A stretch of 47,454 bases of DNA from Bryobacterales bacterium (GTDB lineage: Bacteria; Acidobacteriota; Terriglobia; Bryobacterales; Bryobacteraceae): NCBI GenBank assembly GCA_003167255.1, contig PMTR01000127.1, positions 14,215 to 61,668 of the forward strand, written 5' to 3'. This document shows positions 15,090-32,810 of this stretch, piece by piece. The position numbers were made by a program, and so were the translations under genes. The notes beneath the pieces are model-generated. The model did no database searches and was not told the origin of the DNA. It saw only the letters and a list, made by a program, of their open reading frames with translations. Numbering within the stretch: position 1 is the stretch's first letter; every line of letters starts with the position of its first letter.

Positions 15090-16310
15090 ATGAACCCGTC
15101 CCCATCATTGATGTCGCGCGCGGCGCTCTGGCTGACCTTCGCCGCGGCCGCGTCGATCGTGCTTTCCATCGCTGCGTTCAACATCCTGATGGCCCTGGCC
15201 CTCGCAGCCCTGCTGTTTTCCGGCGAACCGCTGCGCCTGCCGCCCATCAAGCTGCCCCTTGGCATCTTCCTGCTTCTTACCCTGGCTGCCTGGATCTTTT
15301 CCCCAGATCCCTGGATGGATGGTTTTCCCCAAATCCGAAAGTTTTGGATCTTTTGTATCCTGCTGCTCGTCTTTTCCACCCTGCGCAGTCTATCGGTGCT
15401 GCGATGGCTCTTTCTCGCCTGGGCCGGGCTGGCCTCCATCGCCGCTCTCCGCGGCTTCGTGCAATTCTTCACAAAAATCGAACAGGCGCACCAGGCTGGA
15501 ATTGACCTCTACCAATACTACGTGGCGGAGCGCATCACAGGTTTCACCAGTCATTGGAATACTTACGCGGCGGAAGAGATGTTCGCCCTCCTGATGCTGG
15601 CCGCCATGCTTTTTTTTGGCCTCCGCATGCGCAAATCCTGGATTTGGATCTTGTGCGGCGTTCTGATGGCCGTGGCTTTGTACCTGGGCTGGACGCGCGC
15701 GGTGTGGCTGGCGACCGCCGCCGCGGGCCTCTACCTCGCCTGGTTTTGGAAGCGCTGGATGGTGTTCTCGATTCCGCTGCTCGCGGTGGTGGCCTTCTTT
15801 GTGTCGCCGGCCGTGTTGCGCGAGCGCGTCACGTCCGTGCTGCGGCCCCAGCAGGTGGATTCCAACACGTTTCGCATCATCGCCTGGAACGCCGGCATCC
15901 AGATGATCGAGAAGCACCCGCTACTCGGCCTGGGCCCCGAAGGCCCCAAGTATCACTTCAAGGAGTATGTCCCGGCGGATATTTGGGCTACCCGGCCCGC
16001 GGGCTTCTATGAGCATCTCCACAACGTCTACCTGCAATACGGCGCCGAACGCGGCATCCCTGCGCTGCTGGTTTTTCTCTGGCTGATGATTCGGATTTTG
16101 GTCGATTTCGCGCGCGGCCTTCGTGCGCTCCCGCCCGGTCCCGGCGACCGCCGCTACCTGCTGCACGCCGGCATCGCGGTCGTGATTGCCGCGATGGTCG
16201 AAGGTGTCGCGGAAGTGAACCTGGGCGATTCCGAAGTTCTCACCATGTTTCTGGTCGTGATCGCCGCCGGCTATCTCGCACTGGAAAAGGACCTGGCTAC
16301 CGCCCCATGA
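15090..16310 (+). CDS. O-antigen ligase / Wzy-like membrane protein
   Basis: A 406-residue protein with about 11 membrane helices and one large periplasmic loop, the layout of WaaL ligases and Wzy polymerases. Conserved features are RITGFTSHWNTYA before a central helix, WTRAVWLA, and in the long loop RIIAWNAGIQMIEKHPLLGLG and EHLHNVYLQYGAERG, where HNxxL is the hallmark near the catalytic His. It would join or polymerise undecaprenyl-linked glycans in the periplasm. It ends 14 bases inside the convergent terminal gene of the virion operon; both stop codons lie in the overlap. Confidence 0.83.
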   Translation: MNPSPSLMSRAALWLTFAAAASIVLSIAAFNILMALALAALLFSGEPLRLPPIKLPLGIFLLLTLAAWIFSPDPWMDGFPQIRKFWIFCILLLVFSTLRSLSVLRWLFLAWAGLASIAALRGFVQFFTKIEQAHQAGIDLYQYYVAERITGFTSHWNTYAAEEMFALLMLAAMLFFGLRMRKSWIWILCGVLMAVALYLGWTRAVWLATAAAGLYLAWFWKRWMVFSIPLLAVVAFFVSPAVLRERVTSVLRPQQVDSNTFRIIAWNAGIQMIEKHPLLGLGPEGPKYHFKEYVPADIWATRPAGFYEHLHNVYLQYGAERGIPALLVFLWLMIRILVDFARGLRALPPGPGDRRYLLHAGIAVVIAAMVEGVAEVNLGDSEVLTMFLVVIAAGYLALEKDLATAP

Positions 16311-19053
16311 ATCGTGCCGTGCGCTGGCTCTGCTCGAGTGGCAGCGAGTAACCAATCAGGCAGAACTGATCCAGCGCAAACAGCACCATCGATTCCAGAC
16401 GCGCCCCCAGCGCCATCCGCCGCTCTTTCTGCCACGGCGTGGTGGGATCGCCGATGCCCACCAGGTGGCTGCTCTGCGAGGCCCCAAACCCGAGCTGCAT
16501 CGGTAAGTGAATCGACTGCGCCGCGGCGTTCAAGTCCCGATTGCCTGTGTAGGTGAAGTTCTCCGTCTTCAGGCACGTCAGATTCGCCGGAGTCCAGTCG
16601 CTCTTCGGAAAGTTTACAAGCTGGTTCAGTGCCGTGTTGTTGACGTCCGGCGGATACAGAACCTCGAACCGCGCGTTCGCGTGCGTCTGCCGCACAAAGC
16701 CGCGAATCGTCCGGGTGAACGTGCCGATGAGCCCCGGCAGAAACGCGCATTCCTGCTGGAGCGATGCCGGATCCGCGTACTGGTTTGGGATCACCGTCAT
16801 GGCTCGCCCGTATGTGGTTTGAAAGGTCGAGGTGGTGTAGGCGTCATAGAACGGCATGCCGGGCTCGGAAACCGTCGTGCCCGACGGGCCCGGAAAGTAC
16901 CACCACTCGACTTCGCCAAATTGCAGGTAGGGCGCCACGCCCGCGTTGGCCATCACGTCCGCCATATCCAAATAGACCTGCTGCCAGAAGGCCGTGCTGG
17001 CCGGGCTGAAGTTGGTCTGCAGTGCCGGCGTGTTCAGCCAGGCCGCGTCGCCATTTGGATAGCGCTGTGCGATGCCCGCCTGCGTACTGTCGTCTCCATG
17101 CTGCAATTCCATGCTGAACGACGCCGCCACGTCGATGCCGTATCCCTTCAACGCCTGGAAGAACGCGCCGCTCCAATCGCGCGCCGCGCGGTTGATTCGT
17201 GGAGCCGCCGTGAGGTCCGTCAGCCACTTGCCGTCATTGCCGCCCGCGAGCAATCCGCTCGATTGCGCCGTCAGTGGCGTGGTGTTGTTCTGGGAATTGT
17301 CGGGCACCGCCGAAATCGCCATGCCGCTGCCCGCGCTTCCGATCGTGCGCGACATGATCGTCAAGGTGCTGCCCGCTGCGCTCGCCCATACCCCCGTCGA
17401 GCCCGCGTTGATCAGCAGCGCGAAGCACAGGGCCATGCTGTCCGCCGTGTCGCCGATCAAGTTCACATGCTCAATCACGGTCGGCCCCAGGCAGACCTGC
17501 GTCGTCTTCCCGAACTCCGGATTGCCCCCGAACGTGATCTCCCCCGAAGCATATTGCTGCGTCGGGTTGCACAGCTCGTAAAACCACAAAGCCCCCGCGT
17601 AATGATTGGCGCGGCCATGAAATCCTAGCGTGCCGATCAGCCACGCCGTGCGCTCCGGCGCTAGGGCGATCGAGTGGTCCGTATCCCAGTCGGTCGCGAG
17701 AGTGGTTGTCGGGATGGTGTTGAAGGTGGGCAATGTGCTCGTGGGTAAAGCCAGTTCCAGGAAATCGAAATAGAAATACGAACCGGCGGCTCCGCAATGC
17801 GTGATCTTGACAGTGTGTTGCGTCAGCCCCGGGAACTGGCCCAGCGAGACGCGCACTAGCACGTCTTCGCCCGGGAGCGCCAGGACCACAGTCTGCGGAG
17901 CGTCGCCGTCCACTTGTACCGAGACCTGCGCGCCCGCGTTCGCGCGCCGCGTTCCCAGGTAAAGGGTGTGGTCCGCCCCGGCCGTGTAGGAGCAGGTGAG
18001 TGAAGCACCCGGCGTCGTCGTCCAGTGGATCGAGCCACCCGAAAAGTTGCCCCGTCCCGGGCTCCACTGGTCGAGCGGCGAATATGCGACAACCGAGGCG
18101 TCGTCCTCGATCCGCCGGCTTCCCCCGCCCGCAACCTGGTACACAAGGTTGTTTCCAGTCACCGTCCAGTTGGTGACTACCACCGAATACTCGCCCCGCT
18201 GGAAATCTCCAGGCTGCAGATTGGCTGCCCACGTCCAACGCAGTTTTCGCACGCTGGTCGTAGGAACCGGCGCCAATGTCGTGCGGTCCGGGTCGATGTA
18301 GCCTGTGAGCGCGCTGAAGTTCAGGTTCACTTGCCACTGCCGGGGCGACGCCCCACCGCCGAACGTCGCCGAGGCCGGCGACCACATCTCCGTCCCCGCG
18401 CCGTGCACCGTGCCGTACACCCCAATCCGATTGGCATTCTCGCCGGCTTCCGCCGTGTAAGAGAGCGTGATCTGGGCGCCGCTGGCGGCTGCCGTCACCG
18501 TGCCATCGCCGAACTGATTGATGGCGCCGGCCAGCGCGCTCGCTGCGCTCTGCAGCGTGTCGCCTCCCACCAGGCAGTAGTTGTAATGTTGGTTCAGCCA
18601 CGCCAACTCGATGTAATCTCCCGCTGCCGCCACACCCTGTAGCGTGAATTGTACCGTCGCCGCGACGTAGCCTCCCTCCGCGGCCGTCGCATAGTTTTTC
18701 AGCGGCACGTCGTACAGCGTATCGGTGCCGTTGGTTTCCGTCCAGATGCGCAGATAGGGCCACTCCACCGTTGGGTAGAGCGTGGAGTCCATTGGAACGC
18801 AATTTGTGCGCGCTTCCTGATAGCTGAGCTGAACGCCGCTCAAATCGCCATCCGGAAAATTGCGCAGGGCGGGATGCTCGAACACGTTGTCGCGGTTCCA
18901 TTCCACCACCGTCCAATCGAACTGCTGCCGCCAACTGCCCGACACGGTGAATCCGTTCGCGCTGACCTGGCTAAGCGCCGCCGCCGCCGTCGGTCGCTGG
19001 AAATAGCATTGTAGGTCCCGGTCGGGCCGCAGCTTGGTTAGTTGTTCCGCCAT
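16297..19053 (-). CDS. Terminal tail protein with glycosidase-like barrel
   Basis: A 918-residue protein at the distal end of the virion operon. Residues 1-440 are beta-rich. Two similar segments, about 164-212 (GGDTLQSAASALAGAINQFG) and 534-583 (GDTADSMALCFALLINAGST), follow a pattern common in phage tail and baseplate beta domains. The last 300 residues, from about 610, look like a TIM-barrel glycoside hydrolase: candidate catalytic Glu residues are E714/E716 in QFGEVEWWYF and E831 in CLKTENFTY, placed as in clan GH-A. It may bind or degrade surface glycan, or resemble the TIM-barrel domain found in GTA tail proteins. The ATG overlaps the preceding TAA (TAATG). Confidence 0.6.
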   Translation of the reverse strand: MAEQLTKLRPDRDLQCYFQRPTAAAALSQVSANGFTVSGSWRQQFDWTVVEWNRDNVFEHPALRNFPDGDLSGVQLSYQEARTNCVPMDSTLYPTVEWPYLRIWTETNGTDTLYDVPLKNYATAAEGGYVAATVQFTLQGVAAAGDYIELAWLNQHYNYCLVGGDTLQSAASALAGAINQFGDGTVTAAASGAQITLSYTAEAGENANRIGVYGTVHGAGTEMWSPASATFGGGASPRQWQVNLNFSALTGYIDPDRTTLAPVPTTSVRKLRWTWAANLQPGDFQRGEYSVVVTNWTVTGNNLVYQVAGGGSRRIEDDASVVAYSPLDQWSPGRGNFSGGSIHWTTTPGASLTCSYTAGADHTLYLGTRRANAGAQVSVQVDGDAPQTVVLALPGEDVLVRVSLGQFPGLTQHTVKITHCGAAGSYFYFDFLELALPTSTLPTFNTIPTTTLATDWDTDHSIALAPERTAWLIGTLGFHGRANHYAGALWFYELCNPTQQYASGEITFGGNPEFGKTTQVCLGPTVIEHVNLIGDTADSMALCFALLINAGSTGVWASAAGSTLTIMSRTIGSAGSGMAISAVPDNSQNNTTPLTAQSSGLLAGGNDGKWLTDLTAAPRINRAARDWSGAFFQALKGYGIDVAASFSMELQHGDDSTQAGIAQRYPNGDAAWLNTPALQTNFSPASTAFWQQVYLDMADVMANAGVAPYLQFGEVEWWYFPGPSGTTVSEPGMPFYDAYTTSTFQTTYGRAMTVIPNQYADPASLQQECAFLPGLIGTFTRTIRGFVRQTHANARFEVLYPPDVNNTALNQLVNFPKSDWTPANLTCLKTENFTYTGNRDLNAAAQSIHLPMQLGFGASQSSHLVGIGDPTTPWQKERRMALGARLESMVLFALDQFCLIGYSLPLEQSQRTARFMGR

Positions 19054-19562
19054 TAGAGTCGTACCAGTACCGTGAGATTGGCGCCCGGATTCGTCTGTCC
19101 CACCGACGTAACCGCCGCCGTAACCTGTGCTCCCATGGTCAGGGGAGACAGCGTATTGCCATTGACACTGGTGGAGAGCGTCGCTCCAGGCTGAAACGTC
19201 AGCGCACAGTACAATGCGCCGTTCACGTTCACCTGCACCTGGACCACCGAATCCGCCGCCGTTCCCAGAACCGCGTATACGTCACGCACCGCGTGCGACG
19301 CTTCCATCACAATCGGTGGTGCCACGCACTGTTCCACCGCCAGGTATCCATCCACCTGGATCGAGTACTGCCCGCCCGAAAGCGTACGCAGCCCGTTGTC
19401 ATCGTTGTGGGTCAGGTTAATCGCGGCTGTCGTGCTGTTTCCTACGTCGTTGGTCACGAACAACTCCGCACATGCCACGCGCACGTCCGGCAGTGCCACC
19501 GGATAGCTCCAGTTCCCGCAATACGGGCTGCCAAAAAAGTTCGCGGGAAATGGCGCGATCAC
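19053..19562 (-). pseudogene. Frameshifted C-terminal part of the tail hub protein
   Basis: The frame opens at 19619 and encodes THAAAAAVYHLASQTV, then residues resembling the conserved end of phage hub proteins (APFPANFFGSPYCGNW, LPDVRVACAELFVTND, GNSTTAAINLTH), up to the stop at 19053. It carries straight on from the domain that the 19417-22974 gene is reading (ARGIDGTTAARNEEA) but one base out of frame. Only a GTG at 19562 with no good ribosome-binding site could start it alone, giving 169 residues. The simplest reading is one hub gene broken by an indel of one base (or 1 mod 3) near 19587-19640. A real split protein cannot be excluded. Confidence 0.6.
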
Positions 19563-22500
19563 CGTCTGGCTCGCCAGGTGGTAAACCGCCGCCGCCGCCG
19601 CGTGGGTGGCCCAGGTGGATCACAACGAGGGAGGCTTCCTCGTTCCGGGCCGCGGTCGTGCCGTCGATCCCGCGCGCCACGCTGTACTCGGCGCCGCCGT
19701 TCTCGACCGCCGTCACTCGAAGGATCTCGCCGTCGATTTCGAGAGTGCTCCCCACCACCGCCGGACCTGCCGCCCCCAAGGTCAGCGTCTGGTCACCCGC
19801 TCCCATGGCGCTTGCCAGCAAAGTTGTGGGCGTGCCCAGCAGTTCATTCCAGTAGTACAGAGTCAGTGTGCCCGAAGAAATCGAACTCGTATTCGTCAGG
19901 TCGGTGAATGAAACGCCGCTCAATACCGCGGAGCCGCCGGCCGTTCCCGGGCCCATTCCGAAGAACGGCTGCGGCGGCACTTGCGTGTCGGCTTCGCCCG
20001 AGCCTCCAATCGTCCAACGCGTTACCGTCGAGAGCTCCGGGGAACACTCCACATCGTTGACGTTGGCCGAGCGCCCGGTAATCTGCACCACCTCGCCCGA
20101 CCGGTTGGGAATCGCAAACTGCACCGGGCTGCTCTTGGCCACCGCGCCGAAATGCCACCCCGCCTCGGCCACCGTGAAGAAACTGGTTGCGCCCGGCTCA
20201 ACGGTCCACGGCGGGGAAACCGTTAAGCTCGTCGCGTCGTTCGCCGTTACCGTGCGCTCCTGCCCTGCGCCTGTGCCGCGGGTGATCCGCGCCGTCATCC
20301 CGCGGTAACCGTTCGCCGCCATCTGCAGCGTTCCGTTTGCCACCGAAGCGGGCGTATGCGCGGTCACCGCAATTTCCGGCTGCAGTTCCGAGCGCCAGTA
20401 GAAATTGGCGTGATCGAAATTCGCATCGGGCGGCGCTATCAACTGATCGGCAAGACCCGTATCGGTGAACTGCGCATCGAGCGGTTGGTTCGAGGCGATT
20501 CGGAACATCTGTGCCGGTGTCGTGCCCCGATACACATGAAAAGCCGCGGTCCCCGATGCAAAGCTCAGGCCGGTCAGCGTCACGGAGCTGCCGTCGTTCA
20601 CCAACGCCGCGCGCACCAGGAAAGATAGCGGGCTTTCGTCGCCCGCGCTGTCCTCGCCGGAAACGGCATAGTACAGCGTCTGCCCGCCCTGCAATGTTCC
20701 GCCGCTGCCAACCGCCGGTGAAAGATTCAAGAGCGGCATCCCAGGTCCGGCGCCCACAGCGATGGCCGGTGGTACGAAACTGACCGTCACGCTCGTCTCT
20801 ACCGTGCCATCGCTACTCGCGGTCGCCGTCTCCTCCAATCCAAACTGAATGTTGCCATTGGCGTCCAGCACGCTGCCCACCAGGGGCCGCGGCACGCCCA
20901 CTGCGGAGTTGCCGCCCTGGCTCGTTCCCGATCCCGAGGTTACCTGCCCGTTGGTGTCGTCGTACCAGGCATCGTCGTGGATCTGCGCCGTGATCGTCGT
21001 CGTCCGGTAGTTGGTTGCCGGCGAAATCTTCAAAACCCGGAACGGCTGGCGGTTCAGTCCTTCCTTCTGGTACGTCACCGTGATCAGGTCGCCAGGCCGG
21101 ACTCCGAATACCTTTATGCTCGTCTGAAACTCGATGTAGGTATTCCCGTGAATCGATTTGTCGAGGTTGAATTTCAGCATCCGCGCCGCCTGATCGTACT
21201 GCGGCAGCCCCAGCGCCATCAGCGTCGAGGAAACCTCCTGCCCCACCAGCGCGATATCGTCCGCGTCTACCATCTCGTAGCTGTCCTGCTGGTAACCGTT
21301 GAGCGCATCCTGAAACTCCACCGTCAGGCGGTTCGGAGTGTCGGCGATGCTGCGCGATGTCAGGGTCACGCTCGGTTCCCCGTTCGCCTTCCGCAGAATG
21401 CCGGAGAACCCAGTGCTGCCGTCCCCGAATTCGTAGCTCGGCCACCCGCCATTGAGCGGCTCCGTGCTGTTCGACCCCACCGCTTTGGTCGGCATCTGCA
21501 GCGCCGCCGTATTTTCCACGTTGAGCTGCAGCGCGCCGCCGGCTTCATAGGTCAGGTACAGCCGCGCGCAAGTGCGGACGCCTCGCACCAGGTCGCCCGC
21601 GCTGCGCCGGTTCTGCAGCACCAGATTGCATTGAAAACGCGGCAGGGAGATCGTGTTCCCGTTCGGGTCGATGACGTTGATCGCTTCATCGCAATACGCC
21701 GCCGTCCGCGCGAAGCTGGCGATGTCGATTTCCGCCGCCGCCCAGCCGCTCCGCCGCAGCACGTCCAGTAGGATCCACGCCGGGTTGCTGGAAAACTGGT
21801 CGCTGCTGTAAGTCCCGTCCGCGCCGTAGACCGGCACCAACAAACCCTGTACCAGCACTTTTACACTGGGCAGCGAGTCCCCGTTATTGAGCTGGTTCGG
21901 AACCACCACCGACAGGTACGCCATGCTGCCGTACGGATCGCCGGCCGGATTCCCGCTGGCGTCCGTGAAGTTGGGGTCGAGGCAGCCATCCCGCGTTCCC
22001 AACGTCTCGATGTTGTACCAGCCCGAGCCCGTCATATTCTGTCCGTTGACGCCTCGCGGAATCTCCACTCCGCTCACCAGCACCGTCAGCACGTCTTGCA
22101 TCTGCCCGATGCCCAACAGCACCTCCATGCGGGTCAGGTTTCCGTCGTTGCGCGCAAATACCACGTCCGGCGCACACCAGGCCGTGCCGTATACCATCGG
22201 CACATAGTCGTTGTAACGTGCCTGGTTGACGGACAGGTTGGATGCCGTCCAGTCCTTGCCGTATCCGCGCACTTCGATCACCGGAGGCACAAACTCGAGG
22301 CCGCCGAATCTCGTGAACATTCCTCGCGCCTGGCAATCGGAACGCGTGTACCCGCACGTCGTGTACGGCTCGCCGCCGTTCATGCTCCCGCTGCCTCCGG
22401 CAATGTCTGGCGAGTAGCCGCAGCGGTAATACATCGAGTACTTGCCGTTGGCTCCGCCGCTCAAGGCTTCTGCCCGTTGATCCGCCGTCGCCGGAAAGTC

Positions 22501-22974
22501 CCACGGGCAGCGGCGCTGGATGCGCACTTCCGGCAGCATGAGCCGTTGCAGGTTCATCCGGTTGTTGGCCGTCAACCGGAAAGTCGCTTCCTGGATCTGG
22601 TCCGGCGGGTTGCAGATCCCCTGGAACACCACCGCCGCGTCCGTCAGCGGAGCGTTGTTGCGCAGATCGTAGAACAGGAAGCTCACCGTCAGTACCGCGC
22701 CCTTCCAGCCGCACGAGCGCTCGATCTCCGAAAAGTGCGAATCGGCGTTGGCCAGCACAACCGAAATACGCGGGCTGCCGTCAACCCCCTGGTCGGAGGC
22801 CGTCTGGATGTCGAACGCGCTGTGCTGCAACACGCGCGCCGCGTATGCCGTCTGTCCCACGGTCACTGCATGGGTGCTCCAGCTTTCAAGCTGCCCGTTG
22901 CACAGCCTGCAGTCGAACACCATCAGCGGCGTATCCACTACCGCCTGTTCTTTGAGATCAGAGATGGCTTGCAT
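19417..22974 (-). CDS. Tail tip/hub protein, L-J fusion with probable Fe-S site
   Basis: A large tail hub protein, 1185 residues as read. The N-terminal 230 residues resemble phage tail tip protein L and GTA-type tail proteins. Four cysteines, C156, C185, C207 and C214 (RRCPW, YRCGYS, TCGYTRSDC), precede RFGG; the last pair has the C-x6-C spacing of lambda gpL, which binds a [4Fe-4S] cluster. From about 230 to 700 it looks like the J-type hub core (SSNPAWILLDVLRRSGW). Beta-sandwich modules follow, one with TLYYAVSGEDSAGDESPLS and FHVYRGTTP. The last 50 or so residues, after about VVIHLG, are out-of-frame reading of the next segment. It overlaps the upstream gene by 17 bases. Confidence 0.75.
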   Translation of the reverse strand: MQAISDLKEQAVVDTPLMVFDCRLCNGQLESWSTHAVTVGQTAYAARVLQHSAFDIQTASDQGVDGSPRISVVLANADSHFSEIERSCGWKGAVLTVSFLFYDLRNNAPLTDAAVVFQGICNPPDQIQEATFRLTANNRMNLQRLMLPEVRIQRRCPWDFPATADQRAEALSGGANGKYSMYYRCGYSPDIAGGSGSMNGGEPYTTCGYTRSDCQARGMFTRFGGLEFVPPVIEVRGYGKDWTASNLSVNQARYNDYVPMVYGTAWCAPDVVFARNDGNLTRMEVLLGIGQMQDVLTVLVSGVEIPRGVNGQNMTGSGWYNIETLGTRDGCLDPNFTDASGNPAGDPYGSMAYLSVVVPNQLNNGDSLPSVKVLVQGLLVPVYGADGTYSSDQFSSNPAWILLDVLRRSGWAAAEIDIASFARTAAYCDEAINVIDPNGNTISLPRFQCNLVLQNRRSAGDLVRGVRTCARLYLTYEAGGALQLNVENTAALQMPTKAVGSNSTEPLNGGWPSYEFGDGSTGFSGILRKANGEPSVTLTSRSIADTPNRLTVEFQDALNGYQQDSYEMVDADDIALVGQEVSSTLMALGLPQYDQAARMLKFNLDKSIHGNTYIEFQTSIKVFGVRPGDLITVTYQKEGLNRQPFRVLKISPATNYRTTTITAQIHDDAWYDDTNGQVTSGSGTSQGGNSAVGVPRPLVGSVLDANGNIQFGLEETATASSDGTVETSVTVSFVPPAIAVGAGPGMPLLNLSPAVGSGGTLQGGQTLYYAVSGEDSAGDESPLSFLVRAALVNDGSSVTLTGLSFASGTAAFHVYRGTTPAQMFRIASNQPLDAQFTDTGLADQLIAPPDANFDHANFYWRSELQPEIAVTAHTPASVANGTLQMAANGYRGMTARITRGTGAGQERTVTANDATSLTVSPPWTVEPGATSFFTVAEAGWHFGAVAKSSPVQFAIPNRSGEVVQITGRSANVNDVECSPELSTVTRWTIGGSGEADTQVPPQPFFGMGPGTAGGSAVLSGVSFTDLTNTSSISSGTLTLYYWNELLGTPTTLLASAMGAGDQTLTLGAAGPAVVGSTLEIDGEILRVTAVENGGAEYSVARGIDGTTAARNEEASLVVIHLGHPRGGGGGLPPGEPDGDRAISRELFWQPVLRELELSGGTAGRARGMCGVVRDQRRRKQHDSRD

Positions 22975-23740: not shown

Positions 23741-23744
23741 GCGT

Positions 23745-25108: not shown

Positions 25109-25114
25109 TTTTTT
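25063..25114 (-). promoter_or_regulatory. Programmed -1 ribosomal frameshift site
   Basis: The heptamer A AAA AAC (25114-25108) lies exactly in frame as CGA AAA AAC, followed at once by the TGA stop of the first chaperone gene. After slippage the next codon is CTG, in the frame of the second part. A perfect 7-bp hairpin (TCCAACC 25081-25075, GGTTGGA 25069-25063, loop of 5) begins 26 bases downstream, farther than the usual 5-9, so it may or may not be the stimulator. The arrangement matches the G/G-T frameshift conserved in tailed phages. Confidence 0.8.
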
Positions 25115-25470
25115 CGTTCGGCCCCGTTGAGTCCCGTCTCCGCCCTCACGGCCGTCAGCGCTTCCCGAAAAAGGTCTTCCGGACCCGCTTCGGCCAGTAA
25201 TTCCGGCGTGGCCTCGACGCCGTCCAGTTCGAGGCCGGATACCGCTCGCAAACCCCAGGTGAGGTACAGGCGGTCGATTTCCACCTGGAGCAGGGCCGCG
25301 TCCATCTTCTCGCCGGGTTCCGGGCCAGCCTCCAGAAACTCCATGCGGCCGGCCAGTTCCCGCACCCGCCGCATCAGCTCCGTGCGCCTGCCGAACGACA
25401 TTCGGGCGACCGTGTATGAAACACCGCTCGCCACGCGCGATTCCACCACCGAGACGCTTTCGTAGTTCAT
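25105..25470 (-). CDS. Tail assembly chaperone (G part)
   Basis: A 121-residue, strongly helical protein starting at the ATG at 25470 (MNYESVSVVESRVASG). It lies between the tail tube and tape measure genes, the position of the lambda G gene. The sequence has a short beta start, then FGRRTELMRRVRELAGRME and two more helices. Its last codons contain the slippery A AAA AAC heptamer directly before the stop, so a fraction of ribosomes should make the longer G-T product. The frame upstream of 25470 overlaps the tail tube gene and is Arg-rich, so that longer start is rejected. Confidence 0.78.
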   Translation of the reverse strand: MNYESVSVVESRVASGVSYTVARMSFGRRTELMRRVRELAGRMEFLEAGPEPGEKMDAALLQVEIDRLYLTWGLRAVSGLELDGVEATPELLAEAGPEDLFREALTAVRAETGLNGAERKN

Positions 25471-25474
25471 GGCC

Positions 25475-26653
25475 CTATCCGAACGCCACGGCGATTTCGT
25501 CGTCGACGGTTCCCTGCGCGCGCGACGGCTGGAACTTCCACTGCAACCGGTTCTTGCTGTCATCGAACTCCGGCACCACCGGGATCACGCTCTTAAGGTA
25601 GACTCCCATAAGCTGTCCCGGTGCATCGCCCAACTGGAACATCACGCTGATGGGCGATTGCTGGCGCGCCGCCTGATAGAGCGCCGCTGTGTTGCTGTCA
25701 TCCTGGCTGTAGAGTTCGAAGGTGGCCGTCGCGCTGCGCTGTCCCGGAGAGATGGCCCGCGGCAAACTGGAGCCGAACTCATTGGTGCGCGCATCCAGAG
25801 CGTTCTTCAATACGATGGAAGCTTTGGTGACCGTGAAAAACTGCGCCGCCGAAGTGCCCAGCCACGCCTCCCCCAGGTTGCCGGGTACGATCGAGTAGTC
25901 GAACGAACCCAGCGCCGGTTCCGCCGGGAAACTGGTAAGCTGTTGCGCCACTCCCGTGCCTGACCCCACGCTGCTGCTGTCCACCACGTCCTGCGCCAGT
26001 CCCTTGAACTGGAATTCGTGGTAATCGCCGTTCACATCGATTGTCAGTTGGTCCACCGCCGCCCCGCACAGGAGCCGCTGCACCGCAGTTGCAGGACTCC
26101 AGTAATCGAAGATCCCAACGCTGGGCAATTCGGTTGCGGGCACATAGGTGATGGCCGGGGCCACCGTCGCGCCAGCCACCGGAAGCGTTGTAAACGGCGC
26201 GTTCAGTTGCACATTCTGGGCATCCACGATCGCCGCCGCGAATCGGATCTCGCCGCCGCATGTCACGGCCTGCCCGGCGCTCAGTCCATGCGCTGCCGCG
26301 AACCCCAGCCGGCCGCCCGCCGTACTGGATGCCACCGAGCCGCCCGCAAACATCAGCGGTTCGCCGCCCAGCGCGGCCTGAAACAGAGGCCCGTAACCCG
26401 GCCCGCCGCCGCTGGTTTGCCAGGAGGTCAGGTAAGTTTGCAACTCGAAATTGGTGCGGCGTCTGCCGCCTATCGGCAGGCCCGCAAACGTGCGGCTGCC
26501 GGTCTTGTCCTTGCGGGTGGCTACGTCGAGTTGCTGCTGCACAGTCAGCTTGACGGCCGGTATCCGATTGCCGGACGTGATCGTTGGGACCTGTCCATAC
26601 GCGCTTTCCAGCGCTGTGTAGAATCGGTTCGCGTTAGAGGAAATGTAGGCCAT
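25475..26653 (-). CDS. Tail tube protein
   Basis: A 392-residue, beta-rich protein just before the chaperone pair, where siphophage tube genes sit. It starts MAYISSNANRFYTALESAYG, typical of tube proteins, then has a conserved RRTNFELQTYLTSW strand and repeated beta segments such as LTIDVNGDYHEFQFKG and RSATATFELYSQDDSN. The length is near twice that of a minimal tube subunit, so it may be a fused double copy or have an added surface domain (about residues 105-165, an Ala/Gly-rich insertion). No sheath gene accompanies it, so the tail is predicted to be non-contractile. The ATG follows the previous stop by one base. Confidence 0.7.
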   Translation of the reverse strand: MAYISSNANRFYTALESAYGQVPTITSGNRIPAVKLTVQQQLDVATRKDKTGSRTFAGLPIGGRRRTNFELQTYLTSWQTSGGGPGYGPLFQAALGGEPLMFAGGSVASSTAGGRLGFAAAHGLSAGQAVTCGGEIRFAAAIVDAQNVQLNAPFTTLPVAGATVAPAITYVPATELPSVGIFDYWSPATAVQRLLCGAAVDQLTIDVNGDYHEFQFKGLAQDVVDSSSVGSGTGVAQQLTSFPAEPALGSFDYSIVPGNLGEAWLGTSAAQFFTVTKASIVLKNALDARTNEFGSSLPRAISPGQRSATATFELYSQDDSNTAALYQAARQQSPISVMFQLGDAPGQLMGVYLKSVIPVVPEFDDSKNRLQWKFQPSRAQGTVDDEIAVAFG

Positions 26654-26654
26654 A

Positions 26655-27155
26655 TCAGTTTTTACTCACTCCCATCTCAAAGGTGATCTTGGCTATCTGA
26701 ATGAAATTCTTGCCGCCGTGCTTCACGGCTCCGAACGCTACCTGGTATTCGCCGGCGTAAAAGTCGCCGTCGCCCCAATCGCCGCGATTGGCTGCCAGAA
26801 CCTGCATCACCGCGTCGGCATAGAGCTCCAGGTTGTCTTGCAGTCCGTCCAGCCGATCCTGCGAATGACGAAGTTCAATTGCCATCTGGACGGTGCCGGA
26901 AAAACTGCGAAATTTTTCCGCCAGGCTGTTGCTGATTTTTTCGCAGTACACATTCAACGATGGGTACTGCATGGTGTTGCTGAGGGCCGCCACGTCGGGC
27001 GCTGCGTTTTGCGAGCGCACTTGCGCCGGGCTGAAGGAGCTCGGCGCGGCCACGCTCCCCTGCGTGAGCGCGGCCAGCACGGAGTTCACGCCCGCTGGGC
27101 CGGTGATCCGTTGCAGCACTTTCGCCGAAATCGCGCTTCCAATCGTTGTAGCCAT
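26655..27155 (-). CDS. Tail terminator/completion protein candidate
   Basis: A 166-residue protein located just before the tail tube gene, where tail terminator or head-tail completion genes lie. Its middle is helical with a beta-rich C-terminus (YQVAFGAVKHGGKNFIQIAKITFEMG). The segment LEKFRSFSGTVQMAIELRHSQDRLDGLQDNLELYADAV resembles ligand-binding or tail-terminator helix-strand patterns only loosely. The ATG at 27155 overlaps the previous stop (TGATG) with a purine-rich AGAGGGG upstream. The assignment rests on gene order, so it is tentative. Confidence 0.55.
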   Translation of the reverse strand: MATTIGSAISAKVLQRITGPAGVNSVLAALTQGSVAAPSSFSPAQVRSQNAAPDVAALSNTMQYPSLNVYCEKISNSLAEKFRSFSGTVQMAIELRHSQDRLDGLQDNLELYADAVMQVLAANRGDWGDGDFYAGEYQVAFGAVKHGGKNFIQIAKITFEMGVSKN

Positions 27156-27919
27156 CAGCCCCTCTGGATTATCCTCGGCGCCGGCCTCAGGTAGCTGGGT
27201 GATTGTCCGCGTCCTGGTCCCCTGCCGCCCGTCGTCACGGTGTTCGGTTGCAGCCAGGTCTGGCCCACCGCGATCGGCGAGCCGTTCTGCAACTCCAGGC
27301 CGTCCAGGTCGGTTCCGGCGTAGACATTCCATCCTGCCGCGTTCGCTGGAGGCGCCACCGGTTGCACCAGCAGTGTGCTCTGCGAAGTGGTGATAGATGA
27401 GGTGACGGCGGGAGCGCCTTCGTCGTTGGTGGAGTTGGTCCAGCTCATGGTCACGTAGTAAGTGTTGTCCGGCAGGCTTCCGGCTGCCGCCACTACGCGT
27501 GGCGCCGCCGCCTGCGGCACGGGCATCCAGGCGATGCCGATACCGGCTGCCGCCAACTGATCGCAGGCTTGCTTGGCCTGCTCGTGAAACTGATCGCGCC
27601 TGGCGGCATACCGGTCGTTCAATTGGCTGGCGAATGCGTCCGCATACACAAGCTCCAGACTGCGAAATGTGTGCCACAACTTCAGCGCTGGCGTCACCAC
27701 CACGCTGCCCAGCGATGGCGGTGCCGCCAGCCAGAACACTTGGTGGACGAAACTCATCCGAGCCAGCAGAGTCGTGAGTTCCAAAGCCAGTTGGTCCTGG
27801 GCCAGCGCCAGCTTCTGCGTCACGTCGATCCCCTCGACGTTCGCCACGTTCAGGAGCTGAGAGTCCTGTGCCGTCAGATCTTCGATGCTCGAGACGGGAC
27901 CGTCTGTGAACAGAGCCAT
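27155..27919 (-). CDS. Head-tail connector region protein with beta-sandwich module
   Basis: A 254-residue protein between the coat region and the tail terminator candidate. The N-terminal 135 residues are helical (LALAQDQLALELTTLLARMSF; FRSLELVYADAFASQLNDRYAARRDQF), as in connector or adaptor proteins. The C-terminal half is a beta module with DNTYYVTMSWTNSTNDEGAP and GWNVYAGTD, a pattern found in several phage tail and fibre proteins and also in the hub gene of this operon. The exact role is unknown; position suggests neck assembly. Confidence 0.55.
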   Translation of the reverse strand: MALFTDGPVSSIEDLTAQDSQLLNVANVEGIDVTQKLALAQDQLALELTTLLARMSFVHQVFWLAAPPSLGSVVVTPALKLWHTFRSLELVYADAFASQLNDRYAARRDQFHEQAKQACDQLAAAGIGIAWMPVPQAAAPRVVAAAGSLPDNTYYVTMSWTNSTNDEGAPAVTSSITTSQSTLLVQPVAPPANAAGWNVYAGTDLDGLELQNGSPIAVGQTWLQPNTVTTGGRGPGRGQSPSYLRPAPRIIQRG

Positions 27920-27928
27920 GTGAGCCGC

Positions 27929-28252
27929 CTATTCCTTTCCGGGCTTGCCGCCCCTGATCCGCTTGAATTCCTCGGTCGTGACCACCGTGACTTGTACCTT
28001 GGCCGCCTCGGCCGCCTCCTGGGCCAGCCGCAGCACCTCCGCCTGTTGCTTGCGGAACTCCCTGGCTTGCTCTTCCGAAGCCTCCTGCGCCGTCCCGTCG
28101 ACCACCATCCGGGCGGCGATCTGGCGCGTCACTTCGGTGAGCACGCCAACCTTGCCGCCATCCCCTGTCTCCCGGCTGACCAGCACCGGATACGGATCCT
28201 TGAAGGCCGCTTCCTTCTCACGAATTTTTTGGTAGTACTGTCTCAGGTCCAT
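27929..28252 (-). CDS. Small charged helical virion-operon protein
   Basis: A 107-residue protein, mostly charged helix (EEFKRIRGGKPGKE at the C-terminus; QAREFRKQQAEVLRLAQEAAEAAKVQ in the middle). It lies directly after the coat protein gene. AAAGGAG sits 7 bases before its ATG. I do not recognise the family. A head accessory or minor connector role would fit the position, but nothing in the sequence proves it. A short heptamer repeat array lies between it and the coat gene. Confidence 0.6.
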   Translation of the reverse strand: MDLRQYYQKIREKEAAFKDPYPVLVSRETGDGGKVGVLTEVTRQIAARMVVDGTAQEASEEQAREFRKQQAEVLRLAQEAAEAAKVQVTVVTTEEFKRIRGGKPGKE

Positions 28253-28266
28253 GCTGTTCTCCTTTT

Positions 28267-28297
28267 GATTCTGGCTCCTAACTTCTAACTTCTAACT
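28267..28297. repeat. Heptanucleotide repeat array in the virion operon
   Basis: Degenerate 7-base units read GATTCTG, GCTCCTA, ACTTCTA, ACTTCTA and a partial ACT on the plus strand. The consensus ACTYCYR is the same as that of the array at 46515-46563. It lies in the 84-base gap between the coat protein gene and the small gene after it. Confidence 0.65.
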
Positions 28298-28336
28298 GGG
28301 GGCGGGACTGTCTTGCCAACCCCGCCCCCCGAGTCA

Positions 28337-29251
28337 CTATGTATTCACCTGCACGCCGGCGGCGTTGCGCAACACGCCGCATCCGTACAGAATGTCGACC
28401 GTGAATTGCTGCGCCAGCGTATTCGGCTGGTAGCTCATCACGACGCGCATTCCGAAATTGCCAAACTCGGCATACTCCGCGATCGCGCCGGTGCCCGGCA
28501 GCGGCTGCGGCAGGCGCCGGATCACCAGACCCAGCGCGTCGCGCGTGAACGCGAGGTTGTGCGTGGTGATGTTGGGGCTCGTGCCCGTCTTCTTGACCAG
28601 TTGCGACCGGAACACGAAGAAGTCCTTGATCTTCCCCACGCTGCCGCCGATCAGCGCCATCAAACCGGCGTCGCCGGCGGTCTGGAATTCGCTGAACCGC
28701 GGAATCTGCCGCCAGGCCGAATAAGCCGCCGCGTCCACCACGATGTATTTCTGTTCCGTGGGCGGAACCTTCGCAAGGAACAGCGCGGTTTCCGCCGCGT
28801 CGATGGTCGGTTCGGTGATGGCCGTGCCCGCCGTACCCACCGCGGCGTTGGCCGTAAAGCCGGCATACAGGTTCAGAAGATCGCTTTCGACCTTCTCGGC
28901 AATCGCGATCACGGCCGGCTGCATGTAAACCTTCAGCAGGTCGGGCACCGCCAGCACTTTGGTCACGTCCGGAATCTGGAATGTTGCCTCAGCGTGCGTG
29001 TTCAGCACGATTTGCGCGTTCCCCAAACTCGGGTTCTGCGCCTGCACCGTTCCGCCCTCCAGGATGTTGTTGGCTTGCATCGCCGGCGCAATCGGCACAT
29101 TGACCGTGTCTCCGGCATTCGCCAGGACCGGCTCGTAATCCCGATTGACCAGGTTCCCCATCACCAGGTTCGACACCAGTGCCGGCAATGCGTCCGCTGC
29201 TACCAGCTTCACAATCGCGCTGGCCACGTTGTTTGATGTAATTGCTCCCAT
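28337..29251 (-). CDS. Major capsid protein, P22 coat-like
   Basis: A 304-residue HK97-fold coat protein, most like the P22 coat (gp5) type. The N-terminal portion LVSNLVMGNLVNRDYEPVLANAGDTVNVPIAP matches the family pattern of an N-arm followed by a GDTVxV strand. The middle has DAAETALFLAKVPPTEQKYIVVDAAAY, a typical A-domain region, and the end FGMRVVMSYQPNTLAQQFTVDILYG is the conserved spine/P-domain strand. It lacks a cleavable prohead protease partner; instead a scaffold gene precedes it. AAGGAG lies before the ATG. It is shorter than P22 gp5 (430), lacking most of an insertion domain. Confidence 0.8.
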   Translation of the reverse strand: MGAITSNNVASAIVKLVAADALPALVSNLVMGNLVNRDYEPVLANAGDTVNVPIAPAMQANNILEGGTVQAQNPSLGNAQIVLNTHAEATFQIPDVTKVLAVPDLLKVYMQPAVIAIAEKVESDLLNLYAGFTANAAVGTAGTAITEPTIDAAETALFLAKVPPTEQKYIVVDAAAYSAWRQIPRFSEFQTAGDAGLMALIGGSVGKIKDFFVFRSQLVKKTGTSPNITTHNLAFTRDALGLVIRRLPQPLPGTGAIAEYAEFGNFGMRVVMSYQPNTLAQQFTVDILYGCGVLRNAAGVQVNT

Positions 29252-29297
29252 TCTTTCTCCTTATTGACTGTTTTTGCCGGCCAGTTTGCCGGTACTG

Positions 29298-29849
29298 CTA
29301 CATGCCCCGGAGGGACTGTGATGCAACCCGCACGATCTCCTCACGTACCCGCTGCATCTGTTCCGCGCTCATACCTGGGCGGATTTGGTCGATACTCACT
29401 GCTTCTCTGCCCACCACCGGGGCCTTCAGGGTTGCCGTCATCCCGGTTCCCCCCGCAATCCGAGCCGGCAGAAACTCCGGATTCTCGTTGACGAAATTGG
29501 TGAGGTATTCCTTGACCGGTATTTCGCCGCTCTCGGCCCGCGCCACCAGGCGTCCGTCTTCGGTACGCACGATGCCGTCCTGTACCGCTTTGAACGCCAG
29601 ATCGATCTTCGCCACGCCGAGGCGTTGCAGTTCGGCTCTGACGGTCGAGCCGCGTTCCGCCTCTTCCGCCGCCTGCCGGCTGCGTTTGTTCTCCGCCACC
29701 AGCTCATTCATCCGGCGTTCCAACTGTTCCCGCCGCTTGCGCTCTTCCAGCAGCTCCGCCTTGTAAGCCGGCTCGCTCTTGCTCTTTTCGTCTTTGACGA
29801 ATTCTTGAACCGCTTGGCGCACGATCGCTTGAATATCCGTTCCTTCCAT
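29298..29849 (-). CDS. Scaffolding protein
   Basis: A 183-residue, highly charged helical protein between portal and coat genes, the classic scaffold position. The region of residues 25-70 is a coiled coil (KAELLEERKRREQLERRMNE then LVAENKRSRQAAEEAER). The C-terminus has VREEIVRVASQSLRGM, short and basic, as in P22-type scaffolds that contact the coat protein. AAGGAG lies 5-6 bases before the ATG at 29849, which fixes the start. No protease domain is visible, so assembly is likely scaffold-directed without maturation cleavage. Confidence 0.75.
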   Translation of the reverse strand: MEGTDIQAIVRQAVQEFVKDEKSKSEPAYKAELLEERKRREQLERRMNELVAENKRSRQAAEEAERGSTVRAELQRLGVAKIDLAFKAVQDGIVRTEDGRLVARAESGEIPVKEYLTNFVNENPEFLPARIAGGTGMTATLKAPVVGREAVSIDQIRPGMSAEQMQRVREEIVRVASQSLRGM

Positions 29850-29857
29850 AGGTCTCC

Positions 29858-31222
29858 TTATTGCTGTTCGATCTCCTCGGCGACCCGGTTTTTGATCTCC
29901 TGTCGCGCATCGCTGAGGTACTTGAGGGCCAGTTTCTTGAAGACCTGCTTTTTCAGCGTCTCCGACCCGATTCCCAATTCCAGCAGCTTCTTGGCATCGT
30001 CGAGCTCTGTGCCGAGATCGTTGATGTCGAACTCGTCCATGCCCGCGACGTCGATCGTGACGCCGTCCTGCCGCGCGGCCGCCACGGCCCACAGAATCTG
30101 CCGCAAGGTCTCCTTAACCGCGTCTCCGTAGGCGCGCAGCACTTCCTCGGTAGTGCTGAATTCCATCTGCTTGCTCAGCGCGGACTGGCGCGCGTTGCCG
30201 CCGTCGCCGGCCTGGCTCATCAGATAGCAGACGCGATAGATTTCGTCTTTCAACTGCTCCAGGTTGTCCGCCGCGATCTGATAAACCTTGCCCTCCGGCT
30301 CGGTCCATCCGAAGCGGTCGTTCGGCCCCATCTGGATGTAATAGGATTCGCCCACAATCTGGTTCCACTCCCGGTCGGAGTAGATCACGGGGGTGGCGAA
30401 CAGCCCCATGGTGAGCGCCCATGCCAGCGCGTTCGACTTATTAAAGTGCTCTAACTGCAGCAGCGCTGACTTATTCATCAGCCACAGGCCTTCCGTCACT
30501 TTCACCTGGAAAACCGGCACGCGGTGGAGCGAAGCCAGAGCGTGGGGCCCTTGGTCGATCAGTTCGATCGGGCTCTTCTCGCCGGCCTGGCGGAAGATCC
30601 GGAAGTTCTCGCGGTCGTAGTAAATCCACCGCGTCTCGCTCTCCCACCGGGCGTCCGTCACCCGCGATTGCTGGAGGCACGATGTCCGAATGACAATCCA
30701 TTCCAGTCCGCCTGTCTGGTTGAAGTTCCAGTTGATGACTTCGTCCGGGCCGTAATCCACCAGGTAGGCCCGCGACTGTCCGGAGGCGTCCTCTTCGGCG
30801 CGGGACCGCGCGGCGCCCGCCGTCTTCGGGAAGTCCACTACTATGTAACTGGACCCGCAGACCGCCATCTGGACGAACCTTTGCCGGAAGAATTCGGGCA
30901 GGCTGGTTCCTTTTAGGTCGCAGTCGTCGTACAGCAGGCTGTAGAAGTCTTTGGCCGCCGCATCGTTGCCCTCGAACATAAGGACTGGTTCGCGGTGCAT
31001 CAGCGTGGCCGCGTACCAATCGATGATCGAGCCAATGTAATTCTGGTAGAAGACGCGGCTCAGCCGCTCCTGGTAGATTGGACCGGGCTCCTTGTGGCGG
31101 CGCATCAGGTAGTCGAAGGCGCTCAAGCGAAACTGCTCGCCGCCTGCATAGAGGTCCTTGTACTGTTTCCACATCCCCTTGCGGGCGATGTATTCAGGAT
31201 GTTCCCGGTTGATGTTTTCCAT
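29858..31222 (-). CDS. Portal protein (DUF4055-like)
   Basis: A 454-residue portal protein that would form the dodecameric DNA entry ring at one capsid vertex. The N-terminal part (RKGMWKQYKDLYAGGEQFR, SRVFYQNYIGSIIDWYAATL) is the start of DUF4055-type portals. The core includes WIYYDRENFRIFRQ and a helical region LLQLEHFNKSNALAWALTMG, and the C-terminal wing/stem has EFSTTEEVLRAYGDAVKETLRQI. It lies between large terminase and scaffold, as expected. The stop of the terminase gene (TAG) lies two bases before the ATG, so translation is coupled. Confidence 0.82.
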   Translation of the reverse strand: MENINREHPEYIARKGMWKQYKDLYAGGEQFRLSAFDYLMRRHKEPGPIYQERLSRVFYQNYIGSIIDWYAATLMHREPVLMFEGNDAAAKDFYSLLYDDCDLKGTSLPEFFRQRFVQMAVCGSSYIVVDFPKTAGAARSRAEEDASGQSRAYLVDYGPDEVINWNFNQTGGLEWIVIRTSCLQQSRVTDARWESETRWIYYDRENFRIFRQAGEKSPIELIDQGPHALASLHRVPVFQVKVTEGLWLMNKSALLQLEHFNKSNALAWALTMGLFATPVIYSDREWNQIVGESYYIQMGPNDRFGWTEPEGKVYQIAADNLEQLKDEIYRVCYLMSQAGDGGNARQSALSKQMEFSTTEEVLRAYGDAVKETLRQILWAVAAARQDGVTIDVAGMDEFDINDLGTELDDAKKLLELGIGSETLKKQVFKKLALKYLSDARQEIKNRVAEEIEQQ

Positions 31223-31224
31223 GG

Positions 31225-32529
31225 CTAAAAAATTCGATTCTGCTTCTCACCGATCGTGGGCCCGATCATGCACTCCTGCCACAGCACGTATCCCAGGGCA
31301 TCGGAGGAATGCGTTCGCATGCGGTCCCGCTCTTTGTCCACATGGGTGGAATCAGTCTTGTAAGAAACCTGCTCAAAATCCTGGATGAGTTCCTTGCACT
31401 TCGGGTCCACCAGTAAAGTAGTGTTGCCGGAGGCGGACTTTAGCCTGGCGTTGGTCAGATTGATGCGGTCGCGAACACCCGGGTTCGAGGGAGGTACCTT
31501 GTAGTTCACGTTGGTCATGCCCTTTTCCTTGAATCCATCGCGGACCATCTGGTAGTCGGTAACGCCCGACGTCTTTAGGTTTTGGCCCGAAGCATCCCCG
31601 TACACCGTCACGCCCAGTGCATGCGTGGGGTACCGTGCGGTGAACGCCTCCACCGCCTCCGGTGTAGTCGCGTGCCGAAGCACGATTTCATCCAACACCC
31701 GGAATATTCCGCCGTTGTACTGCGCGACGATCGAAGTCATCGGGTCCACGTTGAAGTCCAGCGCCCACAGCAGCGGCACGTTCAGATCGACTGCCAGAGG
31801 CTGCACGTGCACCTTACGGTCGAACGCGCCGTACACCCGGCTGCCATCCAGGCTCAGGTAGTCGCCCAGAGCTTCCTGGGCGAAGAATCGCTCGTCGTAG
31901 ATGTCTTTCAGCCGCTCATAATAGTCCGGCACCTGCGCCAGCAGATGTTTGTTCTCGTTCGGCTGGGCCAGGATGGCGACGTAGTTGGCCACCTTCGTGT
32001 GGTCGATGAACCGCCGGTAAACCCAGTCGTAGCCTTTCGGGGTCCAGGCGGCAAAGCCGCAGAGCCGCTGCGCCTTGGGGTCCCGTAGCCGGGCTAACAT
32101 TCGCTCCCACGCTTCCTCGGCCGTGTAAGTCAGCTCGTCCAGGCCGAACCATGCCAGGTTCGATCCCCGCAGCCTTTCGTAGTCCTCCATCGAGCGAAAC
32201 AGGATCTTGGATTTGCTGTCTTTCAGGATCAGCGTGTTTTCGCTCTTGTTATGCTCGAATGGGATCTCGTTTTCGTCCAGGATCTCGAACAGCGCGGACT
32301 GCGTGGCATCGCGTAACATCGAATAAGTGGGAGCGCCCAGTAACCCCGTGCGCCCCGGATTCTGATATGACAGCCGGATGGCCTCCTGGCAGACCGCCTG
32401 GCTCTTGCCGCTTCCCACCGGTCCGGAAAACCCCTTGAACCGCGCTCCACATTCGTGAAACAACTTCTGCGAGGGCAGCGGATCGTACTCTATCTCTCTT
32501 CTTGTAATACTGTGTTGGGTCCGACCCAT
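31225..32529 (-). CDS. Large terminase subunit
   Basis: A 434-residue packaging motor and nuclease. The ATPase has Walker A GPVGSGKS (residues 36-43), Walker B WFGLDE (D131, E132 catalytic) and a coupling motif AAWTPKG. The nuclease domain has the RNase H-like acidic set: D258 in LDFNVDP, D312 in VYGDASG and D410 in HSSDALGY. All key residues are present, so the enzyme looks able to pump and cut DNA. The ATG at 32529 has GGAGG 10 bases upstream and lies inside the preceding small gene. Length is normal for the family. Confidence 0.93.
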   Translation of the reverse strand: MGRTQHSITRREIEYDPLPSQKLFHECGARFKGFSGPVGSGKSQAVCQEAIRLSYQNPGRTGLLGAPTYSMLRDATQSALFEILDENEIPFEHNKSENTLILKDSKSKILFRSMEDYERLRGSNLAWFGLDELTYTAEEAWERMLARLRDPKAQRLCGFAAWTPKGYDWVYRRFIDHTKVANYVAILAQPNENKHLLAQVPDYYERLKDIYDERFFAQEALGDYLSLDGSRVYGAFDRKVHVQPLAVDLNVPLLWALDFNVDPMTSIVAQYNGGIFRVLDEIVLRHATTPEAVEAFTARYPTHALGVTVYGDASGQNLKTSGVTDYQMVRDGFKEKGMTNVNYKVPPSNPGVRDRINLTNARLKSASGNTTLLVDPKCKELIQDFEQVSYKTDSTHVDKERDRMRTHSSDALGYVLWQECMIGPTIGEKQNRIF

Positions 32530-32762
32530 GTGACTTGTACCTCCGTATCCTGTAGTTCGTCTTCTAAGTCTTTTTCAAGTTGGAGAAGTTTGAGGTATTC
32601 CGCGATAGTTGGCTTAAAGTCCACGTCCTGTAGTTTCTGGTCATAGCTGGCGATCGCCTTGTCGAGCAGTTCCTGTACCCTCACGTGCTCTCGAATGGCG
32701 TCCCAATTGCTGCATTGTTTGCAGTCTGGTTTTCGGTCTGTCTTGGATTCGGTCTTGCTCAT
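32490..32762 (-). CDS. Small protein at the small-terminase position
   Basis: A 90-residue protein, the first gene of the operon. It has a Cys pair (DCKQCSNWD) near residue 15 and then a mainly helical, acidic region (EYLKLLQLEKDLEDELQDT). It overlaps the large terminase by 40 bases. Small terminases are usually 100-180 residues with a helix-turn-helix; none is clear here, so it is either a divergent small terminase or an unrelated leader protein. The ATG at 32762 was chosen over the upstream frame because of the usual SD-free operon start and the hairpin that precedes it. Confidence 0.5.
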   Translation of the reverse strand: MSKTESKTDRKPDCKQCSNWDAIREHVRVQELLDKAIASYDQKLQDVDFKPTIAEYLKLLQLEKDLEDELQDTEVQVTWVGPNTVLQEER

Positions 32763-32783
32763 AAAGAGTCCGTAAAATGCAAA

Positions 32784-32810
32784 CGGCCTCGCGTTGTTTG
32801 CGCGAGGCCG
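32784..32810. terminator. Perfect 10-bp hairpin in the virion operon leader
   Basis: CGGCCTCGCG (32784-32793) and CGCGAGGCCG (32801-32810) pair perfectly around a 7-base loop. On the minus strand it is followed by TTTGCATTTT, so it could act as an attenuator or terminator 21 bases before the first gene of the virion operon. On the plus strand no T-run follows. I see no convincing sigma70 promoter in the remaining bases up to 32905. Confidence 0.6.

Follow-up and report, generated by a model that had tools for sequence, protein, structure and literature searches.

A stretch of 47,454 nucleotides from the genome of a Bryobacterales bacterium (contig PMTR01000127.1; hereafter the window) carries a head-and-tail operon at positions 16297–32813 of the minus strand, where all the operon genes described below lie, with matches to phage families in PHROGs and Pfam. 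We put a probability of roughly 0.7 on the reading that this operon is a domesticated, mostly vertically kept head–tail cluster whose product is a small siphovirus-like particle, and that this particle is most likely a gene transfer agent (GTA). That reading draws on gene content and order, on conservation throughout the host family, on agreement between the cluster and host trees and on purifying selection; it also draws on a short tape measure, a short protein in the slot of the small terminase (TerS), a frameshift signal and the existence of phage relatives that share the gene order. The term GTA names a function that we infer, as packaging and transfer of host DNA are themselves presumed from the genes. 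The original prediction, made from the letters alone, had described a 16.5-kb single-strand head-and-tail operon that could be a domesticated particle in an acidobacterium; the operon was borne out, and its domestication is supported by synteny, by the family-wide presence of the large terminase (TerL), by tree congruence and by the ratio of nonsynonymous to synonymous substitution rates (dN/dS).

The cluster is widespread in its host family and rare in our samples beyond it. At E 1e-60, TerL (31225–32529; phrog_2, 3.9e-37; Pfam Terminase_6N) matched in 183 of the 237 genomes sampled from the host family, probably the Bryobacteraceae; the matches span 66 of 76 genera and include 123 of the 148 good-quality family genomes, as a single copy in all carrying family genomes except G032 and G473. 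The same threshold in a sample of the phylum gave 3 of 396 genomes, all from this family. At E 1e-10, 36 of 61 near relatives carried TerL, one with a weak 28% match. Thirty-six relatives that bear names are metagenome-assembled genomes carrying the labels Bryobacterales, Bryobacteraceae, Solibacteraceae, Terriglobia or Acidobacteria, with seven from Acidobacteriaceae. The portal protein (29858–31222; phrog_145, 4e-51) was found in 86 genomes of a class sample of 399, and 83 of these 86 belong to the family. These TerL and portal counts are lower bounds, because G553, which has no portal match, carries the tail genes J and g16, and G497, described below, has cluster genes but no TerL match. 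G553 had been considered as a possible empty site and was rejected as one, J and g16 lying beside the same flank as in the window; no empty site was found. Five assemblies of 1–4 contigs (G576, G577, G523, G623 and G630) contain the run from TerL to J, so the cluster is not a binning artefact. IMG/VR holds at least 592 confirmed stretches with a related terminase, and ten of its longer contigs that we searched for integrases carry such clusters, judged by TerL; contigs of this kind have probably been counted there as viruses.

Synteny among relatives had been suggested as a check; apart from the exceptions given below, gene order was the same in 31 fetched genomes (of 36 TerL-positive near relatives, leaving out G012, G017, G024, G039 and G060) as far as their contigs reach, 25 of them into J. 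The TerL residues that we take to be Walker A, Walker B and the acidic residues of the nuclease did not vary across the 31 rows compared, which represent 30 clusters and one prophage, matching the ATPase and nuclease residues originally called intact. Stop codons in head genes of close strains had been named as a sign against domestication, and no internal stops appeared in TerL among the matches listed, from near relatives and family genomes.

We compared a host tree built from rpoB and rpoC with a tree of 12 cluster genes for 26 of 31 genomes, leaving out G001 and G004 (no rpoB) and G016, G020 and G035 (fewer than eight genes); a prophage relative on contig C144 of G032 was also kept out of the cluster trees. 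The two trees shared 14 of 23 splits, against at most 3 in 1000 relabellings. The cluster tree recovered all nine strong host splits, the host tree contained 13 of the 14 splits that are strong among the clusters, and host and cluster distances correlated at 0.71, compared with a maximum of 0.60 in 2000 permutations. Substitution rates were compared with G001, with G002 and with seven loci from IMG/VR; among these loci, L026 and L270 come from a single contig, and L022 does not differ from the window. Against the sister genome G001, cluster genes had dN/dS of 0.07–0.36, a sign of purifying selection, with the value for J possibly inflated by its frameshifted end. Synonymous divergence (dS) from G001 was 0.20–0.39 for the cluster genes, TerL apart, and 0.25–0.32 for four flanking genes. 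By these comparisons the cluster is under long-term, mostly vertical inheritance with purifying selection.

The clusters differ from their phage relatives in the tape measure and in the TerS slot. The tape measure protein (24106–24807), identified through the similarity of its C terminus to the tape measures of the phage relatives, is 183–235 amino acids long in 26 clusters and 181 in G008, confirming the short tape measure originally proposed; the two readable phage versions have 869 and 945 amino acids. Judged by these gene lengths, the cluster protein is four- to fivefold shorter. In the TerS slot (32490–32762; 90 amino acids from the second ATG), an open reading frame (ORF) overlapping the start of TerL and sharing a related C terminus occurs in 31 of 31 cluster-bearing genomes, found by motif in 27 and by eye in G004, G008, G044 and G057. 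With the chosen starts it encodes 71–132 amino acids, versus 188–216 for the small terminase in the five of seven phage relatives where one was found. Four phage TerS proteins that were scanned match PHROGs small terminases over their N-terminal (three) or central part, and no counterpart of that part was seen in the cluster protein, for which starts are uncertain and the predicted model is weak: AlphaFold2 (AF2), run on 29 rows, gave two helices at low confidence, with a predicted local distance difference test score (pLDDT) of 68.9 and a predicted template-modelling score (pTM) of 0.34. The protein has no Pfam or PHROGs match, and its homology to phage TerS is unsupported.

A frameshift signal follows the neck and tube genes. 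G/GT frameshifting serves the assembly of long tails. The gene g10 (25105–25470), for which a tail assembly chaperone G role is suggested by this signal and by position, has no PHROGs match and encodes 120–135 amino acids in 25 of 28 clusters. At its end lies the slippery heptamer A AAA AAC (25108–25114) for −1 frameshifting, which 27 of 28 clusters have in g10 in the correct phase; A6C occurs just 34 times in 445,562 bases of cluster strand. The −1 frame extension (24758–25113), the candidate GT part, is open for 75–140 codons in all 26 clusters examined; several clusters have an open +1 frame as well, which makes openness of the −1 frame a weak sign by itself.

Uncultured temperate phages related to the cluster were found as an element in G032 (G032:C144) and as IMG/VR loci L274 (G653), L275 (G654), L277 (G656) and L279 (G657). 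In a survey of sixteen records, with phage or cluster status assigned by TerL identity and tree, four of six phage-relative records carried an integrase (G653, G654, G656 and G657), on records of 26–66 kb. G653 and G656 have the same order as the clusters from TerL to g16, with g8 not matched in G653. The phage relatives carry additional genes at two places, one separating TerL from the portal gene and the other separating g7 from the tail protein. A DNA methylase is present in the phage relative L276 and, by reading of the record, in the C144 prophage. Against the clusters, the coat proteins of G653, G654, G655, G656 and C144 are 69–84% identical and the phage portals 26–35%. In a portal tree rooted on six phages, 30 cluster portals form one clade (100/100); G057, from another family of the class, and G044, from another family of the order, fall outside the family clade (99.5/100), the position of G057 itself being weakly supported (54/93).

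Integrases were scarce in the clusters. Two of the ten cluster contigs in the survey contained one, both within foreign DNA that breaks a cluster gene, and six recombinase queries (three of the seven integrases and three serine recombinases) had no match in 32 cluster regions totalling 912,922 bases. In the window flanks, cluster contigs and regions searched, clusters have no integrase of their own, and lysogeny or self-replication genes were not found with the cluster. The two interrupted loci are on metagenome contigs. At L361 (G659:C1:1-17000, at about 7170) the foreign DNA splits the coat gene near residue 278, and the contig shows the two halves; at L362 (G661:C1:11000-23201, at about 4805) the break falls in g16, near residue 495, and the far end lies off the contig. 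Each insertion encodes a large serine recombinase with Pfam Resolvase and Recombinase domains, and each also a tyrosine integrase.

The remaining genes of the operon follow a head-to-tail order. Between portal and coat lies a scaffold-like protein (29298–29849; 37–96% identity in relatives), putatively named from its position, followed by the major coat protein (28337–29251), which is of P22 type (P22_CoatProtein, 1.7e-15; phrog_283, 1.8e-41). A P22-like coat with a scaffold and without a protease had been proposed: the coat is as described and no protease was matched among the operon genes of the window, and the scaffold is a name based on position. The names of the chaperone and the tape measure likewise rest on position, the frameshift signal and similarity to phage relatives. 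Next come g6 (27929–28252), a small head or neck protein kept in position at 35–91% identity with no confident family match, and the neck protein candidate g7 (27155–27919), also kept in position, with a weak match to phrog_8040 'head closure Hc3' (8.9e-05). NCBIfam gave no match for portal, coat or g7. No sequence family matched g8 (26655–27155), which is a tail terminator by predicted fold: its AF2 model (pLDDT 89.6, pTM 0.86) has Foldseek matches that include lambda gpU (3fzb, 8.6e-4) and chain 4A of the native GTA particle 6tba (4.8e-4). The tail tube candidate (25475–26653) matches phrog_290 'minor tail protein' (3.4e-16), its major-tail role being suggested by position.

Downstream of the tape measure are a distal tail protein with a DUF2460 domain (23745–24104; PF09343, 3.3e-10) and g13 (22958–23740), a DUF2460-like protein (PF09343, 2.6e-4, below the Pfam cut-off) whose residues 83–225 match the NCBIfam model NF048003 GTA_spike_fiber above cut-off (5.6e-16). 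The J-like tail hub (19417–22974; phrog_31, 4.5e-28; PF13550) and g16 (16297–19053), a tail protein with a TIM-barrel domain (PF23845 TIM-barrel_NCTSP, 1.7e-16), complete the operon. In five relatives whose contigs continue beyond J, g16 was not found, and G044 has about 3.5 kb extra between the tape measure and g12.

The complete head-to-tail order originally described stands, with one correction: the hub gene is not intact. In the window, J is interrupted by a net 40-base insert (about 19612–19651) that shifts the frame and orphans its C-terminal part as 'g15' (19053–19562), which is read in frame with J in relatives, where whole copies on contigs encode 1284–1312 amino acids. The insert is absent from G001 and from IMG/VR loci L269 and L270 and present in L268, on a contig that in all other respects matches the window exactly across the compared genes; its presence there argues against an assembly slip, unless that contig came from the same sample. 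A stretch of 23 bases overlapping the insert recurs in the same genome, as an exact copy at C49:259258 and with two mismatches at C49:261531, as though the sequence had been copied from contig C49.

Pfam matches among 18 flanking ORFs are to chromosomal genes, including those for an O-antigen ligase, a PMT_2 glycosyltransferase, asparagine synthase, MacB and HlyD proteins and aconitase, with a few ORFs lacking a match; no tRNA or Rfam match was found in the window. Both flanks are common to G000, G001 and G002. The O-antigen ligase gene also adjoins g16 in G553, G457 and G595. In a set of 17 genomes, the remaining ones with a match have this gene at a different place or on a separate contig. 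In seven fetched genomes of other genera, the cluster is followed by a gene for 402–410 amino acids; the one copy read encodes an ABC ATPase, and the gene at the same place in L377 encodes an ABC ATPase with a Wzt_C domain. The neighbours are often surface-polysaccharide genes, as with the O-antigen ligase at 15090–16310 of the window and the ABC ATPase in several genera.

Several observations weigh against a vertically kept GTA. The first concern inheritance. Outside the family the portal was found in just 3 genomes of the class sample, so transfer into those families is possible. A strong cluster split, G008 with G013 (98), is missing from the host tree, and nine host splits, most of them weak, are missing from the cluster tree. 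TerL is the sole dS outlier against G001 (0.845, at 76% identity) and has therefore probably been exchanged by recombination. Coat genes of phages and clusters are interleaved: G654 groups with cluster G008 (92/99; with G655, 98.8/100), and C144 and G653 group with cluster G032 (98.9/96), so coats have been exchanged between phages and clusters. The coat tree was accordingly rejected as a test of monophyly. G032 holds both a cluster (G032:C149) and a prophage relative (G032:C144), at loci L134–L137, and the grouping suggests exchange between the two kinds of element. A TerL tree with three named-phage outgroups would nest phages within clusters, with unreliable rooting; the outgroup branches are too long, and we did not use it for the direction of change. 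An integrase, or differing positions, in relatives had been foreseen as contrary evidence: the six recombinase queries matched nothing in the 32 regions searched, and chromosomal neighbours do differ between many genera, so the cluster has moved at times.

Other contrary points concern the genes themselves. The dN/dS of the tape measure reaches 0.51 in more distant comparisons, and G015 (L148) has only 356 bases between g10 and g12, filled by the −1 frame extension, with no room for a tape measure gene, which seems lost there. TerS-slot starts were chosen by hand, and starts giving 175–191 amino acids are possible in G016, G032 and G033; a profile comparison of the TerS-slot protein (26 of 27 aligned sequences, leaving out G034, which contains N) with phage TerS gave a probability of 0.4%. 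In G497, which gave no TerL match, the run from portal to J is conserved (L377, G497:C3:2896000-2915500) but the portal gene is not preceded by TerL, which may have been lost or may lie at another place in that genome. G498, G499 and G502, of the same genus, match the portal and not TerL. With the hub gene frameshifted, the window copy may be partly defective and the particle of this strain altered or non-functional. Finally, the evidence for the GTA reading is genomic, and particles, packaged DNA and transfer are predictions from it.

The main rival, which we regard as improbable, is a PBSX-like particle, likewise domesticated and packing random host DNA, that kills rivals rather than delivering genes. 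Its gene content would be expected to be identical, TerL matches TIGR01547, the TerL family of PBSX, below threshold (2.2e-12, 47 bits versus a cut-off of 105), and the elaborate receptor-binding end (J, the g13 spike domain and g16, the last missing in some genera) would suit such a particle. The 18 flanking ORFs, which were not searched for an immunity gene as such, showed none, and nothing there is decisive; sequence cannot separate killing from transfer.

It is very unlikely that the cluster is a persistent prophage or satellite lineage re-infecting the family. Temperate relatives share its gene order and have close coats, and one sits in the cluster-bearing genome G032; yet host and cluster trees are congruent, dS equals that of neighbouring genes and the cluster portals are a single clade. 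The composition is also host-like, with 62.2% GC in the operon versus 62.3% and 61.9% in the flanks and GC at third codon positions likewise matching. The longest exact direct repeat linking the operon edges is 10 bases, a chance length, and there are no attachment (att) repeats. Pfam found no recombinase or lysis gene in the 18 flanking ORFs, lysis genes and regulators not having been searched for elsewhere in the genome, so the original statements that integrase, att repeats and lysis genes are absent alongside the operon agree with the scan. An integrase or recombinase of its own and att sites, as an active temperate prophage would have, were not found at the window and the cluster contigs searched. 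A prophage decaying in this genome only, the alternative first offered, may still describe the frameshifted J of this strain and is hardly credible otherwise, being refuted as a general account by synteny, family-wide TerL and dN/dS, with the remaining cluster genes open and under purifying selection.

If the cluster is a GTA, TerL would fill P22-type heads with host DNA, starting at no particular sequence; the head would be joined to a short tail bearing a J-like hub, and the particle would carry cell DNA to relatives, with lysis and control genes presumably elsewhere in the chromosome. A fuller scenario, to which we give even odds, is a separately evolved acidobacterial GTA, fixed in one family (probably Bryobacteraceae), that arose from an extant temperate-phage lineage by losing early genes and specific packaging and by cutting its tape measure four- to fivefold in length, and that still swaps coats with phage relatives and actively moves chromosomal DNA in soil.

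Few GTAs are described outside Alphaproteobacteria (PMC11841831, PMC12946183). A literature search, with most subscription journals and bioRxiv outside its scope, returned none in Acidobacteria, Acidobacteriota, Bryobacter or Solibacter, and PMC6172770 yielded nothing bearing on an acidobacterial GTA. The acidobacterial 'prophage' clusters 140 and 153 of PMC5900883, and the Acidobacteriaceae-like Sphagnum contig of PMC12142844, may include this element. A family-wide cluster in soil Acidobacteria would, if true, extend GTAs to another phylum.

Among the close known systems is the GTA of Rhodobacter capsulatus (RcGTA), which has an HK97-type coat with a protease, a short tape measure, and the DUF2460, Phage-tail_3 tail-tip and GTA spike-fibre domains. 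The present cluster resembles it in being one head–tail cluster under mostly vertical inheritance, in its short tape measure and in these tail-tip and spike-fibre domains, all found here; it differs in its P22-type coat, in the lack of a matched protease and in its phylum. The coat, together with a megatron match of 18 bits versus a cut-off of 800 and no close sequence relation, places it outside the RcGTA-like class. RcGTA is described as a 17-gene cluster with mostly vertical inheritance (PMC10883770) and has a 'GTA-type' TerS without an N-terminal DNA-binding domain (PMC6854486), which the short TerS-slot protein possibly resembles, by analogy. FpGTA of Faecalibacterium, a GTA-like element outside Alphaproteobacteria that is podovirus-like and split into two operons (PMC12946183), is set apart by that description and by its phylum. 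No named phage is close: cyanophage KBS-S-2A and others have the nearest named TerL, at about 32–33%, and identity falls to 30% or less for the coat and to about 26% for the portal and 25% for J, with no match for g16. The best reading of the sequence is an independently domesticated GTA-like system, for which the phages of the same gene order serve as an outgroup, so that the path from phage to particle can be followed one gene at a time.

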